A program made the translations under genes and the position numbers. Positions 51,622 to 57,141 of a stretch of DNA of 64,000 nt are shown here, piece by piece. Each line of letters opens with the position of its first letter. The first letter of the stretch is position 1. The stretch is taken from contig CALUYH010000004.1 in the NCBI GenBank assembly GCA_944324965.1, positions 1 through 64,000 of the forward strand, read 5' to 3'. The notes below the pieces were generated by a model, which searched no databases, was not told where the DNA came from, and was given only the letters and a program-made list of their open reading frames with translations. The stretch is from Candidatus Avelusimicrobium gallinaceum (GTDB lineage Bacteria; Elusimicrobiota; Elusimicrobia; Elusimicrobiales; Elusimicrobiaceae).

Positions 51622-53085
51622 ATGAAGAAACTTCTTTTGCTGCTGGGGTGTTTGTTTTTCGGCCTTGTGTTGCAGGCCAAAACCGTCACGCTCTATCACA
51701 CCGGGGATACGCACGGGTTTTTCTATCCCCAAAACGGCACCGGCGGGGCGGCCGCGCTGGCGGCGGTGCTTGCCCGGGAGAAAGCGCCTTACCTGCTGCT
51801 GGACAGCGGGGACTTTGCCGAAGGCACCGTGGAAACCCAGCGTTCCCAAGGGTTAAAAGCCGTCCAATTAATGAACTTTCTGCACTACGATGCCGCCACC
51901 GTGGGCAACCACGAATTTGCCTTCCAAGACAGCGGTTTTGACGCCTTGCTCCATGCGGCCGATTTTGCCGTATTGGCCGCCAATTTAAAAGATGCCCAAA
52001 CGGGCCAATATCCCCCCGATGTGCTGCCGTACAAAATGTTTACGGTAAACGACGTAAAAGTGGCGGTGATAGGGCTGGCCCATCAAAATCCCACCCGCAA
52101 AACCCGCAAGTATATTCTTTCCGCGCCGTTTGCCGCGCTGAAAAAAGCGCTGGCGGAAGCCGAAAAAAAGCACCCGCAGGTGGTCGTGGTGTTGGCGCAC
52201 GATTCGCTGGCGGAGGACCGCCCCGGCCATCCCTTTTATATGGGAAACATCGGGCGGAAACTGGCCGGCCGCGTGCATGTGGTGTTGGGCGGGCACGCAC
52301 ATCAGATTTTGCAAAACGAACACCGCGGCGGCGTTTTGTTTGCCGAAAGCGGAAGCAATTTCCAAAACGTAACCAAAGTAACCGTGGAAACGGATGATAA
52401 AACCGGCCGGGTGGTGAAAGCGCGGTCTGAACAGATTCCTTTGGATATTTCCCAAACCGGCGAAAATGCCCGGGTGAAAAAATACGCCGAAACGCTGCGG
52501 GAAAAAGACGCGGACGAAGTTGTCGGCCGGACCTCCGCCGCGCTTTACAAACGGTCGTGGGTACCCGGACAAATGGATTCCCCCGCAGACAATTGGGTGG
52601 CCGACGCCACCTGCCGCTACGCTCCGGCCGATGTGTGCATCCACAACACGGGCGGGGCCCGCACGGGGTTGCCCAAAGGCAACATCACCCGCCGCGATAT
52701 TTTTGATTTGTATCCGTTTGATAACACGGTGGTTACGGCGCAGGTCAGCGGAGCTTTTTTAAAAAAGCTGGTGGCGGGGGGACTCGTGCCGCGGAACCGG
52801 CTGGCGTATGCAGGGCTAAGTGTGGCGTACTGCAAAACCAAAAGCGGCAAAATCAAAAACCTGCAAATTTGGGTGCGCGGCGAGCGGTTGCAAGAGGATA
52901 AACAATACACGGTGGCCGTTAATTCCTATGTGGCGGGCCGCGGGCGCGAAGGAAAATTATTTAACACCCTGCCCAAAGGGGCGCTCCGCTCGGCCGGGGC
53001 CAAAACGGTGCGCCAGGTGTTGGAGGATGACTTGAAAAACGGCGTGCTGGTTCCGCCCGCCACGGGACGCATCACGGAAAAATAA
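51622..53085 (+). CDS. Exported 5'-nucleotidase-like phosphoesterase 1
   Basis: 487 residues, UshA family. Signal peptide MKKLLLLLGCLFFGLVLQA; metallophosphatase domain with YHTGDTHGFFYP, LLLDSGDFAEG, VGNHEFAF, VVLAHDS and LGGHAHQI supplying all two-metal ligands; then a nucleotide-binding domain with IHNTGGARTGL and YPFDNTVVTA. It probably strips phosphate from extracellular or periplasmic nucleotides. No ribosome site is visible before the ATG, which follows the nifS terminator by 10 bases. First of three tandem relatives. Confidence 0.88.
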   Translation: MKKLLLLLGCLFFGLVLQAKTVTLYHTGDTHGFFYPQNGTGGAAALAAVLAREKAPYLLLDSGDFAEGTVETQRSQGLKAVQLMNFLHYDAATVGNHEFAFQDSGFDALLHAADFAVLAANLKDAQTGQYPPDVLPYKMFTVNDVKVAVIGLAHQNPTRKTRKYILSAPFAALKKALAEAEKKHPQVVVVLAHDSLAEDRPGHPFYMGNIGRKLAGRVHVVLGGHAHQILQNEHRGGVLFAESGSNFQNVTKVTVETDDKTGRVVKARSEQIPLDISQTGENARVKKYAETLREKDADEVVGRTSAALYKRSWVPGQMDSPADNWVADATCRYAPADVCIHNTGGARTGLPKGNITRRDIFDLYPFDNTVVTAQVSGAFLKKLVAGGLVPRNRLAYAGLSVAYCKTKSGKIKNLQIWVRGERLQEDKQYTVAVNSYVAGRGREGKLFNTLPKGALRSAGAKTVRQVLEDDLKNGVLVPPATGRITEK

Positions 53086-53163: not shown

Positions 53164-54630
53164 ATGAAAAAAACTTGGTTGCTATTAGTTGCAGTTTTAC
53201 TTGCGCCGCTTATTTTAACGGCCAAAACGACTACGATTTATCACACCAGCGACGTGCACGGGTTTTTCTACCCGCAGCACGGGCAGGGGGGCTACGCCGC
53301 GTTGGAAGCGGTCATCAAGTCCGGCCCGGCCAGCTATATGCTGCTAGACAGCGGGGACTTTTCCAACGGTACCGTGGAAACCCGCAACTCCAAAGGATTA
53401 AAAGGCGTGCAAATGATGAACCGCATGAACTACGATGCGGCCACCATCGGCAACCACGAGTTTGATTTCAAAGGCGAAGGCTTGGCCCCGCTGTTGGCCA
53501 ATGCGCAGTTTGCGGTGCTGGCGGCTAACTTTTTTGAAGCCGCCACCGGCAAGTATCCGCCGTCGGTACTTCCGTATAAAGTGTTTGACGAAAACGGTGT
53601 GAAAGTGGCCGTGATCGGGCTGGCCAACCGCGAGCCGACGAATCCTTCCAAACTCTACACCTACGGCAAACCGCTCGTAGCGCTGGAAAAAGCGTTGACC
53701 GAAGTGGAAGCCAAAAACCCCAACATTGTGATCGTGCTGGTGCACGACTCCTTGCAGGATGAAAAACACGGCACCAAATCCTACGTGCAGGACATCGGCC
53801 GCAAGTTCGGCGGGCGCGTGCATGTGGTGCTCGGGGGGCACGCACATCAGATTTTCCAAAACCAATACATCGGCGGTACGCTGTTTGTGGAAAGCGGCTG
53901 CAATTTGCAAAACGTCAGCCGCGTGACGGTAGAAACCGACGATAAAACCGGCAAAGTGGTGTCGGCCAAATCCCAACTGATTCCGCTCGTGGTGGCCCAA
54001 ACCGGCGAAGACGAAGCCGTCAAAGAATATGCCGACTCCCTGCGCGAACCGGGCGTGGATGAAGTGCTGGGCGAAGCGGCCGAAACGCTTTCCCGCACGC
54101 CCCAACAAGCCGACCGCCAGGACGCGCCGCTTAATGATTGGATTGCCGATTTAATCCGCTCCTACGCCGGCACGCAAATTGCCGTGCACAACAATGGCGG
54201 CACCCGCGTGGATATGGTAAAAGGTCCGGTGACCAAACGGGATTTGATTGAAATCCACCCCTTTGACAATACCGTTACGCTGGTGACGGTGGACGGCAAA
54301 TTTTTGAAAAAATTTATCAAAAAAAGTTTCGCGCCCGACAGCTTGTATTCGTATTCCGGGCTGACGATTACGTATAAGAAAAACAAAAAAGGCAAAATCA
54401 AGGATTTGAAAATTTTTGTAGACGGACAGCCTGTCCAAAACCGGCGCAAATACACGCTGGCCACCAACACGTACATCGCGGGCGGCGGCAGCGAAGGCTG
54501 GATGTTTAAACGCATTTCGGACAAAGACAAAAAAGCCGTCGGTTCAAAAACCATCCGCGATTTGATGGAAGACGCCTTACGCCAAGGCAAGGTCTCCGCG
54601 CCGGAAACCGGGAGGATTCGCCAGCGGTAA
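53164..54630 (+). CDS. Exported 5'-nucleotidase-like phosphoesterase 2
   Basis: 488 residues, close paralogue of its upstream neighbour. Signal peptide MKKTWLLLVAVLLAPLILTA; YHTSDVHGFFYPQ, LLDSGDFSNG, IGNHEFDF, VLVHDS and LGGHAHQIFQN keep every metal ligand; C-terminal domain with VHNNGGTRVDM and HPFDNTVTLV for base stacking and ribose contacts. AAGGAG precedes the ATG; the frame extends upstream to 53122 but without a ribosome site. Coupled by TAATATG to the third member. Confidence 0.9.
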   Translation: MKKTWLLLVAVLLAPLILTAKTTTIYHTSDVHGFFYPQHGQGGYAALEAVIKSGPASYMLLDSGDFSNGTVETRNSKGLKGVQMMNRMNYDAATIGNHEFDFKGEGLAPLLANAQFAVLAANFFEAATGKYPPSVLPYKVFDENGVKVAVIGLANREPTNPSKLYTYGKPLVALEKALTEVEAKNPNIVIVLVHDSLQDEKHGTKSYVQDIGRKFGGRVHVVLGGHAHQIFQNQYIGGTLFVESGCNLQNVSRVTVETDDKTGKVVSAKSQLIPLVVAQTGEDEAVKEYADSLREPGVDEVLGEAAETLSRTPQQADRQDAPLNDWIADLIRSYAGTQIAVHNNGGTRVDMVKGPVTKRDLIEIHPFDNTVTLVTVDGKFLKKFIKKSFAPDSLYSYSGLTITYKKNKKGKIKDLKIFVDGQPVQNRRKYTLATNTYIAGGGSEGWMFKRISDKDKKAVGSKTIRDLMEDALRQGKVSAPETGRIRQR

Positions 54631-54631
54631 T

Positions 54632-56122
54632 ATGCGTGCAAAAAGTTTTTTGGGAGTGTTGGCCGGGTTGATTTTATTGGGTGCGTGCGGACGGGATGCG
54701 CGCACCCATATAGACGTATTTTTTACGGCGGACGTACAAGGCTTTTATTGGTCCCGCCCGGAGCCCCGCTGGGATAACCGCGAAGCGGGCGGCTACGCCG
54801 TTTTGAAAAACTTCCTGCAAAAACACGAAGGAGCGTTTTTGCTGTTTGACGGCGGCAACTGGTTCGGCTCCGCGCCCGAAGGCACCATGACCAAAGGCGC
54901 CTACGTGGCCGAGCTGGCCGATACTTTGCCGTACACGGCGGGCACCATCAGCGACAAAGATTTGGTGTACGGTTGGCCTTCGCTGCGCAATATCGTGGAG
55001 AAGCTGCCGTATCCGTTTGTCGTGTCCAACCTGCGGCTGGAAAACCAAATCCCATGGCCGATGCACGACTATCAAATCCGCACGGTAAACGGCATTAAAA
55101 TCGGTATCTTCGGTTTGATAGACCCGCAAACCGTCAACAAAAACAAAGCCCGTCTGCTGGGGTTGCAAGCCTTGGACCCCGTGCAGGTGGCGCAGGAAAT
55201 GACCGCCCTGCTGCGGGAAAAGGGCGTGGACGCGGTCATCGTGCTCAGCTCGTTGGCAGCCTCGCAGGAAAACAGCGTGAGCGAAACCTCCATCGCCGAA
55301 GAAACCCCCGGCATTGATTTGATTTTAAGTTCCAATAAAGACCGCGAAAACGCCGAAACCGACCAAATCAACCAAACGCTCATCGTTTATCCGGGCTCCA
55401 AGTTGGACAGTGTGGCCCACATCCGCCTGTCCTTTGACAAAAACAAACAGCTGCGTGAAATGACGTTTGAAGATGTCGCCCTCGTCAAAGAAACCTACGG
55501 CGAGGACGCCGACATCGCCCAACGGGCCGCCACACTGCGGGCCGGAACACGCCGGAAGATGAACGCGCGCGTGGCCGAATTGCCGGCGGAAATCACCACC
55601 TCGCTCACGCAGGAATCTGCGTTGGGGGACCTGCTGACGCAGTGCATGTACAAATGGTCGCGGCTGGACGGCGCTATTTTAAATTCGGACTCTATCCGCA
55701 GTTCGCTCCCCGCCGGCAAACTGACCGAATACGATTTGTACAAAGCCTACCCGTACGGGGACAACATTACGTTTATCACTATTAAGGGGGAAGCCTTTTT
55801 AAAAGCGTTGGAATCTTCGTTAAACGCCAAGGACAACTTCCCGCAGATTGCGGGTTTTTCCGTGACGTATGCCGACACGCCCCGCGGCCGCAAAATCCGC
55901 CGCGTCACGCTGGACAACGGCCGGGTGATTCGCCCGCAGGATACGTACCGCTTTGCCGTGACGGACCATATTTTGGCCGGCGGTTTCGGACACGATGATT
56001 TTATTGATTCGCTGGAATTTAAAAACACTTTTGTGGAAGCCCGCCAGATTATGCGTTCCTGCCTGGTCCGCCAAAAAACCGTAGTGGCGCCGGAAACGGG
56101 ACGCTGGAAAAAAGTACCATGA
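54632..56122 (+). CDS. Lipoprotein pseudo-5'-nucleotidase
   Basis: 496 residues. Lipoprotein signal peptide (GLILLGAC, acylated Cys) instead of the plain signal peptides of its neighbours. It aligns with them throughout, but each metal ligand is replaced: D-x-H is DVQ (FTADVQG), GDF is GNW, GNHE is SDKD (TISDKDLVYG), the HDS His is Ser, and GGHAHQ has become SSNKDREN. The C-terminal nucleotide-binding half (LNSDSIRSSLPAG, YPYGDNI) is retained. Probably a membrane-anchored, non-catalytic nucleotide or partner-binding subunit; enzyme activity is unlikely. Overlaps dus by 4 bases. Confidence 0.85.
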   Translation: MRAKSFLGVLAGLILLGACGRDARTHIDVFFTADVQGFYWSRPEPRWDNREAGGYAVLKNFLQKHEGAFLLFDGGNWFGSAPEGTMTKGAYVAELADTLPYTAGTISDKDLVYGWPSLRNIVEKLPYPFVVSNLRLENQIPWPMHDYQIRTVNGIKIGIFGLIDPQTVNKNKARLLGLQALDPVQVAQEMTALLREKGVDAVIVLSSLAASQENSVSETSIAEETPGIDLILSSNKDRENAETDQINQTLIVYPGSKLDSVAHIRLSFDKNKQLREMTFEDVALVKETYGEDADIAQRAATLRAGTRRKMNARVAELPAEITTSLTQESALGDLLTQCMYKWSRLDGAILNSDSIRSSLPAGKLTEYDLYKAYPYGDNITFITIKGEAFLKALESSLNAKDNFPQIAGFSVTYADTPRGRKIRRVTLDNGRVIRPQDTYRFAVTDHILAGGFGHDDFIDSLEFKNTFVEARQIMRSCLVRQKTVVAPETGRWKKVP

Positions 56123-57141
56123 AATACATCCGCCCGCTGACAATCGGCTCGTTCACGGCGGCCAACAATTTGCTGTTGGCGCCGATGGCGGGCATTACGG
56201 ATTCGCCTTTTCGCGTGTTGTGCCTAAAAGGCGGGGCGGGGATCGTCTGTGCGGAAATGGTGTCTGCCCACGCATTGCACTACGGTAACGCCAAAAGCGG
56301 GCGTATGCTGCGCGTCAACCCGAAAGAGCACCCCGTTTCTATGCAAATTTTCGGCTCGGACGAAGCCACCATCGCCGAGGCCGCCCGCAACGCCGAAGCC
56401 CAGGGGGCCGATATTGTGGATTTAAATGCGGGTTGTCCCGTTAAAAAAATCAACAAAGCCGGCGCCGGCTGCGTACTGATGAAGGACGAAGCCAAACTGG
56501 GGCGGCTGGTAGAGGCGGCGGTAAAAAGCGTCAAAATTCCGGTCACGCTCAAAACGCGCATCGCGCTGACGCACAAAGAAATTTTAAGCGTACGGTTGGC
56601 TAAACTGGCCGAGAACGCCGGCGCTTCGGCCGTAATTTTGCACGCGCGCGCGGCGGTGGACGTTCATTCCGGGCCGCCCAATGTGCCCGCGGTGGCCGAG
56701 GCGTGCGCAGCGGTCAAAATTCCGGTCATCGGTAACGGCGGTATTGTGGACGCGCAAACCGCAAAACCTTTTTTGGACGCCGGCTGTGCGGGCGTGATGA
56801 TTGGCCGCGGCGCGGTGGGGAATCCGTTTGTGTTTCGGGATATTGCGGACGCGTTTGCAGGCAAAACCCCTTCGTCCCACACGCCCATTAGCCGCCTGCG
56901 CATTTACCGGGACCTCATCCGCGAAAACGTGGCCTATTACGGCGAGCGCATTGGCGTAAACCGCAGCCGCAAGACGGCCGGCTACTGGATACGGGATTTC
57001 GCCGGCGCGGCGGATGTGCGCGGCACGTTTGTGCGGTTGGACACCCTGGCCGATATAGAGGCCCTGTTTGCCCAAACGCTGGCCCGGCTGGAACGCGACG
57101 AAGAAAACCTCCCCGGCATTTCCGTGCAAAAAAACAGCTAA
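56119..57141 (+). CDS. dus: tRNA-dihydrouridine synthase
   Basis: 340 residues, FMN TIM barrel. LLAPMAGITDSPFR, VCAEMVSAHAL, DLNAGCPVKKINKAGAGCVL with the catalytic Cys, VTLKTRIA and VILHARA for substrate, and IPVIGNGGI with MIGRGAVGNPFVF for FMN phosphate, then a helical tRNA-binding tail. It reduces uridines in the tRNA D-loop. Closest in pattern to DusB. ATGA overlap with the pseudo-nucleotidase gene places it in the same operon. Confidence 0.95.
   Translation: MKYIRPLTIGSFTAANNLLLAPMAGITDSPFRVLCLKGGAGIVCAEMVSAHALHYGNAKSGRMLRVNPKEHPVSMQIFGSDEATIAEAARNAEAQGADIVDLNAGCPVKKINKAGAGCVLMKDEAKLGRLVEAAVKSVKIPVTLKTRIALTHKEILSVRLAKLAENAGASAVILHARAAVDVHSGPPNVPAVAEACAAVKIPVIGNGGIVDAQTAKPFLDAGCAGVMIGRGAVGNPFVFRDIADAFAGKTPSSHTPISRLRIYRDLIRENVAYYGERIGVNRSRKTAGYWIRDFAGAADVRGTFVRLDTLADIEALFAQTLARLERDEENLPGISVQKNS

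Follow-up and report, generated by a model that had tools for sequence, protein, structure and literature searches.

The window analysed here, a stretch of 64,000 nucleotides from the gut bacterium Candidatus Avelusimicrobium gallinaceum, contains a run of three UshA-like genes, M1 (51622..53085), M2 (53164..54630) and M3 (54632..56122), all on the forward strand. This run and the full length of its third member had been proposed in an earlier sequence-only reading of the DNA and were confirmed by the ORFs. The M2 stop lies 1 nt upstream of the M3 start, and the M3 stop overlaps by 4 nt with a further forward-strand ORF (56119..57141) for what is, judging from its sequence, presumably a tRNA-dihydrouridine synthase (dus), a gene that also adjoins M3 in host-family loci. 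The three UshA-like genes account for all three 5_nucleotid_C proteins of the host genome (1.49 Mb, 89.75% complete). M2 is a UshA-like 5'-nucleotidase with a complete active site and a signal peptide without a lipobox; M1 is 52% identical to it. Both match the Metallophos and 5_nucleotid_C domains of Pfam and, as had been claimed, both hold every two-metal ligand (7/7 each in the alignment). M1 carries Ala at the position of Asp120 in GNHEFD, which we take to be a residue of the catalytic dyad. This substitution is found in 17/17 M1-type proteins, the other 113 active homologues having Asp, and M1-type paralogues may thus be slow or altered enzymes. In two related loci an active gene is broken into two frames, M1 in L047 (2911-4448) and M2 in L058 (3133-4611), with the M3 of each locus intact; these breaks could be assembly errors.

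M3 encodes a protein of 496 aa, predicted to be lipid-anchored, that is 22% identical to M1. The lipobox, L-G-A-C at residues 16-19 (54677..54688) with Gly directly after the Cys, was found as described, and M1 and M2 have none at the end of the signal peptide. Alignment with M1 and M2 places D34-V-Q36 (54731..54739) at the metal motif DxH, G-N-W (54854..54862) where the actives have G-D-F, S-D-K-D (54950..54961) for G-N-H-E, S-S-L (55247..55255) for H-D-S and SSNKDREN (55328..55351) for GGHAHQ. Every motif change listed in the sequence-only reading was therefore seen, but its claim that all ligands had been replaced needs amending, as Asp34 remains as one of seven; this Asp is invariant in the M3s of the host genus (55/55). 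Both residues of the catalytic dyad are absent. The sole Pfam match of M3 is 5_nucleotid_C (PF02872, 55592..55990; 91.2 bits against a cut-off of 23.6), Metallophos being unmatched. Two cysteines, Cys338 (55643..55645) and Cys477 (56060..56062), are candidates for a disulfide on the basis of their joint conservation.

To place these changes among relatives, proteins were pooled from the fetched loci, copies with identical last 350 residues were removed, and NF041198-like rows and shorter fragments were dropped beforehand, leaving 94 M3-type proteins from the host genus, host family and sister family and 130 active homologues, all longer than 440 aa. The M3-type proteins retain none (n=23), one (n=65), two (n=5) or five (n=1) of the seven metal ligands. 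All seven are present in 130/130 active homologues, a class that was defined by D84, N116 and H117 (DNH), so that the other five ligand columns form the independent test. Loss of the site comes back in the 94 M3-type proteins along with the lipobox and the position, and the 130 actives are intact; it is beyond chance. Recent decay or an assembly error in M3 was ruled out by this recurrence in independent genomes together with the dN/dS values given below. Replacement residues are kept within the genus (K109 in 47/55, S206 in 51/55 and N235 in 51/55 M3s) and are unlike between genera (e.g. GGD..., ASNAEK..., RQN...). The one copy with five of seven ligands (L089:7452-8999, forward strand) is without N116, H117, D120 and H252. 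It is possible that this copy represents a halfway stage, and its half-lost site makes the route of loss testable; its placement in the tree is weakly supported (89/66), which leaves a single loss and parallel losses indistinguishable.

A single branch separates the dead proteins from the rest, with support of 100/98 in a 53-protein mixture-model tree and of 100/100 in a 47-protein LG tree, the ligand columns having been left in for both. M3 did not group with the M2s of its own order, and an AU test of duplication within the order gave no rejection (p 0.327). While this test neither shows nor rejects such a duplication, synteny supports it. Several loci outside the order have a single active copy near rplM-rpsI; the sister family has the order rplM-rpsI-M2-M3, and most host-family loci have M2-M3-dus-rplM-rpsI or M2-M3-dus. 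This shared place near rplM-rpsI makes M2 look like the positional orthologue and M3 like the tandem copy. An active gene lies upstream on the same strand in 89/94 M3 loci, at a spacing of -8 to +13 nt in 83 of these 89 (modes -4 and +1) and of 60-268 nt in the other six. Five loci have no upstream active gene: four (L019, L088, L095, L130) are at contig ends or have an active gene that is cut short, and L108/L145 has a genuine M3 without an adjacent M2. Conversely, L115 has the active gene and no M3. Small proteins lie between rpsI and the nucleotidase in two sister-family loci (L145:9364-9912 and L138:6555-7016), with no Pfam match over the cut-off.

Retention of M3 was examined across the order. 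A protein search, which was not specific to M3, found a homologue of some kind in 87/90 host-family genomes and in 51/51 of those of good quality, with no internal stops in M3 among the matches listed. A profile built on 32 proteins, all M3-type, gave matches of at least 350 bits in 83/90 host-family and 46/59 sister-family genomes by hand count, the line having been drawn after seeing a gap between 327 and 352 bits, where 327 bits was the best other match among those listed. The host-family genomes below this line comprise three without a match (completeness 64-66%), three with matches cut by contig ends (G014, G017, G069) and one (G089) with a divergent protein that is nonetheless dead and has a lipobox (L095). 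In the sister family, 13/59 genomes were without a strong match to the M3 profile.

Nei-Gojobori dN/dS was 0.046-0.132 for M3 (12 pairs) and 0.044-0.090 for M2 (11 pairs), with dS above 1 in several pairs, so that single values are rough, and with none near neutrality. By half, the M3 values were 0.030-0.141 (N-terminal) and 0.032-0.126 (C-terminal). These values indicate that the dead half of M3 is constrained about as tightly as the active enzyme M2. The proposal that M3 is under selection thus held, on dN/dS, order-wide retention and a confidently predicted fold; frame-disrupting changes in orthologues, which had been named in advance as the sign of simple decay, were absent among the matches listed, and this favours function. 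M3 is best read as an ancient pseudoenzyme kept by selection, and it stands for a family of putatively lipid-anchored pseudo-nucleotidases that spans the order and on which purifying selection is strong. The initial observation was right and is more general than first claimed. Since M3 has been kept intact beside M2 through a whole order of bacteria, this protein of a gut bacterium very probably has a non-catalytic job. The contrary reading of M3 as a decaying pseudogene, for which the lost catalytic residues are the sole point, can be dismissed as already refuted by the lack of internal stops among the listed matches, dN/dS near 0.05-0.13, the conserved lipobox and cysteine pair, and retention throughout the order.

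The predicted structure of M3 (AlphaFold, 99 sequences; pLDDT 92.4, pTM 0.79) has the two-domain UshA/CD73 fold. Foldseek and VIA-align matched this model over near full length to UshA, CD73, 3ivd, 2z1a, NadN and SoxB (Z approximately 31-35), and phmmer against solved structures gave 3ivd as the top match (E 1.5e-24). A sister-family M3, 24% identical, also gave a two-domain model (pLDDT 90.6, pTM 0.81) with similar structure matches. The fate of the nucleotide-binding half was less simple than the sequence-only reading had it: the domain is kept, as its Pfam score attests, but its contact residues are altered. At the positions that we take to be nucleotide contacts of UshA (in what we assume to be UshA numbering), genus M3s keep R410, have F429 changed to Y and N431 to D, mostly have F498 changed to H, and have D504 changed to F or A, rarely L. 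The GGxG loop and NSDSxR motif have gone from sister-family M3s, in which the contact site is largely lost and the rest of the domain stays. The claim that loss was confined to the catalytic half is therefore not borne out in that form. Elements common to the M3 group are the lipid Cys, a glycine-rich N-terminal core, a G..T..DLY...P turn, and ADC...W and EF.N...R...C elements with two cysteines. Such a pattern, we infer, points to conservation of a scaffold or surface more than of a single ligand.

A strict lipobox is present in 93/94 M3-type and 3/130 active proteins, and a relaxed pattern (hydrophobic signal and Cys after Gly, Ala or Ser) in 94/94 M3-type proteins. In E. coli, Asp after the lipid Cys causes retention in the inner membrane. 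This residue is never Asp in the M3-type proteins (94/94) and, by the E. coli rule, the outer membrane is indicated. Cys338 and Cys477 are both present in 91/94 M3-type proteins and in 11 class-level actives. A disulfide as a novelty specific to M3 was rejected because these 11 actives outside the order hold both cysteines too; the pair is probably ancestral, and would then have been lost on the M2 side.

The mechanism that we consider most likely, and propose tentatively as falling somewhat short of probable, is that M3 is a partner of M2, which it binds, anchors and/or tunes. On this view an old tandem duplication of the gene for M2, a secreted 5'-nucleotidase, would have given rise to M3, which became a pseudoenzyme among the ancestors of the order (Elusimicrobiota) and acquired a lipid anchor. 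M3 would be made in step with M2, exported and lipidated, and would probably reside at the outer membrane, facing the periplasm. There it may bind soluble M2, and also M1 in genomes that have it, without being a catalyst itself, so that bound M2 would be held at the membrane and/or have its activity tuned, as by dead paralogues of other enzyme families. The sequence-only reading had raised two hypotheses for M3, anchoring of its active paralogues and capture of nucleotides; the operon pairing and the split between a soluble protein and a lipoprotein fit anchoring. Adjacent genes are often co-translated although their products do not bind each other. The M3 of L145 without an adjacent M2, the M2 of L115 without an M3, and the 13/59 sister-family genomes without a strong M3 argue against a partnership.

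Evolutionary rates were compared for covariation across the 55 branches of a fixed 29-species tree, with the background of neighbouring genes removed. M2-M3 covariation (r 0.22, p 0.11; Spearman 0.27, p 0.045) was not above that of control pairs (NifU-NifS 0.51, NadK-M3 0.53, Dus-M3 0.48), and was therefore rejected as proof of partnership; these low values give no support for a special bond between M2 and M3. A correlation between the M2 N-domain and the M3 C-domain (r 0.44, p 8e-4) was one among six domain pairs tried and is not built on.

This absence of a special M2-M3 signal would fit a reading of M3 as a structural or scaffolding lipoprotein of the envelope whose partner is not M2, adjacency being a relic of the tandem duplication. 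The M3 of L145 without a neighbouring M2 and the conservation of M3 motifs outside the former active-site motifs (e.g. EFKNT...R...C) are consistent with such a role. However, the pair has stayed within a few nt in 83/89 loci across two families, longer than a mere relic predicts, and we regard this alternative as unlikely, if deserving of attention. Also unlikely, and slightly more so, is that M3 serves as a membrane-anchored binder of a nucleoside, nucleotide or related compound, which it would capture or sense at the envelope with no hydrolysis. The retained C-terminal domain, the R410, Tyr at F429 and common His at F498 of genus M3s, and the presence of R356, Y375, D377 and H454 in this domain among the best-conserved positions of these proteins favour a ligand. 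Against this, the changes N431 to D, F498 to H and D504 to F differ from UshA and vary between genera, and the disappearance of GGxG and NSDSxR from the sister family makes a common ligand across the order unlikely. Highly improbable is a different catalysis through a rearranged site (e.g. Asp34, Gln/Glu36, Asn76, Asp108, Lys109, Asn235): while the constancy of D34, K109, S206 and N235 in the genus would fit a new site, the replacements differ between genera in a manner unlike a shared one.

In the sister family a second phosphatase seems, from its motifs, to have died in the neighbourhood of M3. The gene that follows M3 in this family (L104, L111, L116, L127-L138, L141-L145) encodes a short membrane-anchored HAD-like protein in which what we take to be motif I has Glu for the presumed Asp nucleophile in 20/20 genomes, reading FEYDDG in most, and motif IV is changed too. 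Outside the order the same gene stands beside a lone active nucleotidase (L097-L102, L106, L107, L109, L112, L113) and the motif I Asp is kept in 9/11 loci. By Pfam this protein resembles acid phosphatase B weakly, at E approximately 1e-3 and below the cut-off. The HAD-like gene had no tblastn match among the fetched host-family loci and none in 40 host-family genomes in a search run without a positive control. As a more doubtful extension of the partnership between M3 and M2, there may be an order-wide envelope module in which the pseudo-nucleotidase (with the HAD pseudo-phosphatase in the sister family) assembles with and controls the soluble 5'-nucleotidase.

Pseudoenzymes as such are well known. 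Among the titles and starts of abstracts listed from the open-licence literature there was no description of a pseudoenzyme of the UshA family, and the single paper there with both 'nucleotidase' and 'pseudoenzyme' concerns APRT. A literature survey that covered ushA-like genes has '- -' in its Elusimicrobiota row (PMC10454023), the meaning of the columns being taken from the title of the survey; on this reading the active enzymes of these bacteria appear to have been overlooked too. The persistence of M3 beside an active twin through a whole order provides a natural experiment on which parts of a fold outlast its chemistry.

Among known families, the NCBIfam entry NF041198 (UshA_like_PCGU (seleno)protein) resembles M3 in being UshA-like with altered metal motifs, and its profile scores the catalytic half of M3 at 85.6 bits as compared with 43.4 and 40.7 for M1 and M2. 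Membership was rejected, as 85.6 bits is far from the 275-bit cut-off, a value exceeded by no match in 149 genomes of the phylum. Ten high scorers for this profile in Elusimicrobiota were examined: eight have a thioredoxin-like front and SNDD...HHQ, and the other two, L124 and L126, are nucleotidases with an intact site. The UshA-like proteins of L117-L123 and L125, with a thioredoxin-like front and partly altered metal motifs, are related to NF041198 and fall under its cut-off. With the UshA/CD73-type 5'-nucleotidases (PF00149 and PF02872) M3 shares the two-domain fold over its full length (3ivd, 2z1a, UshA, CD73), but it is without six of seven metal ligands, the dyad and a Metallophos match and, where these enzymes have a plain signal peptide, M3 is a lipoprotein by its lipobox. 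A further parallel is the AdoMetDC prozyme of T. brucei, for which binding and activation by a dead paralogue are reported as proven (PMC5201418). M3 differs from the prozyme in being a bacterial lipoprotein with a putative partner role, and resembles it as a dead paralogue kept beside an active relative.
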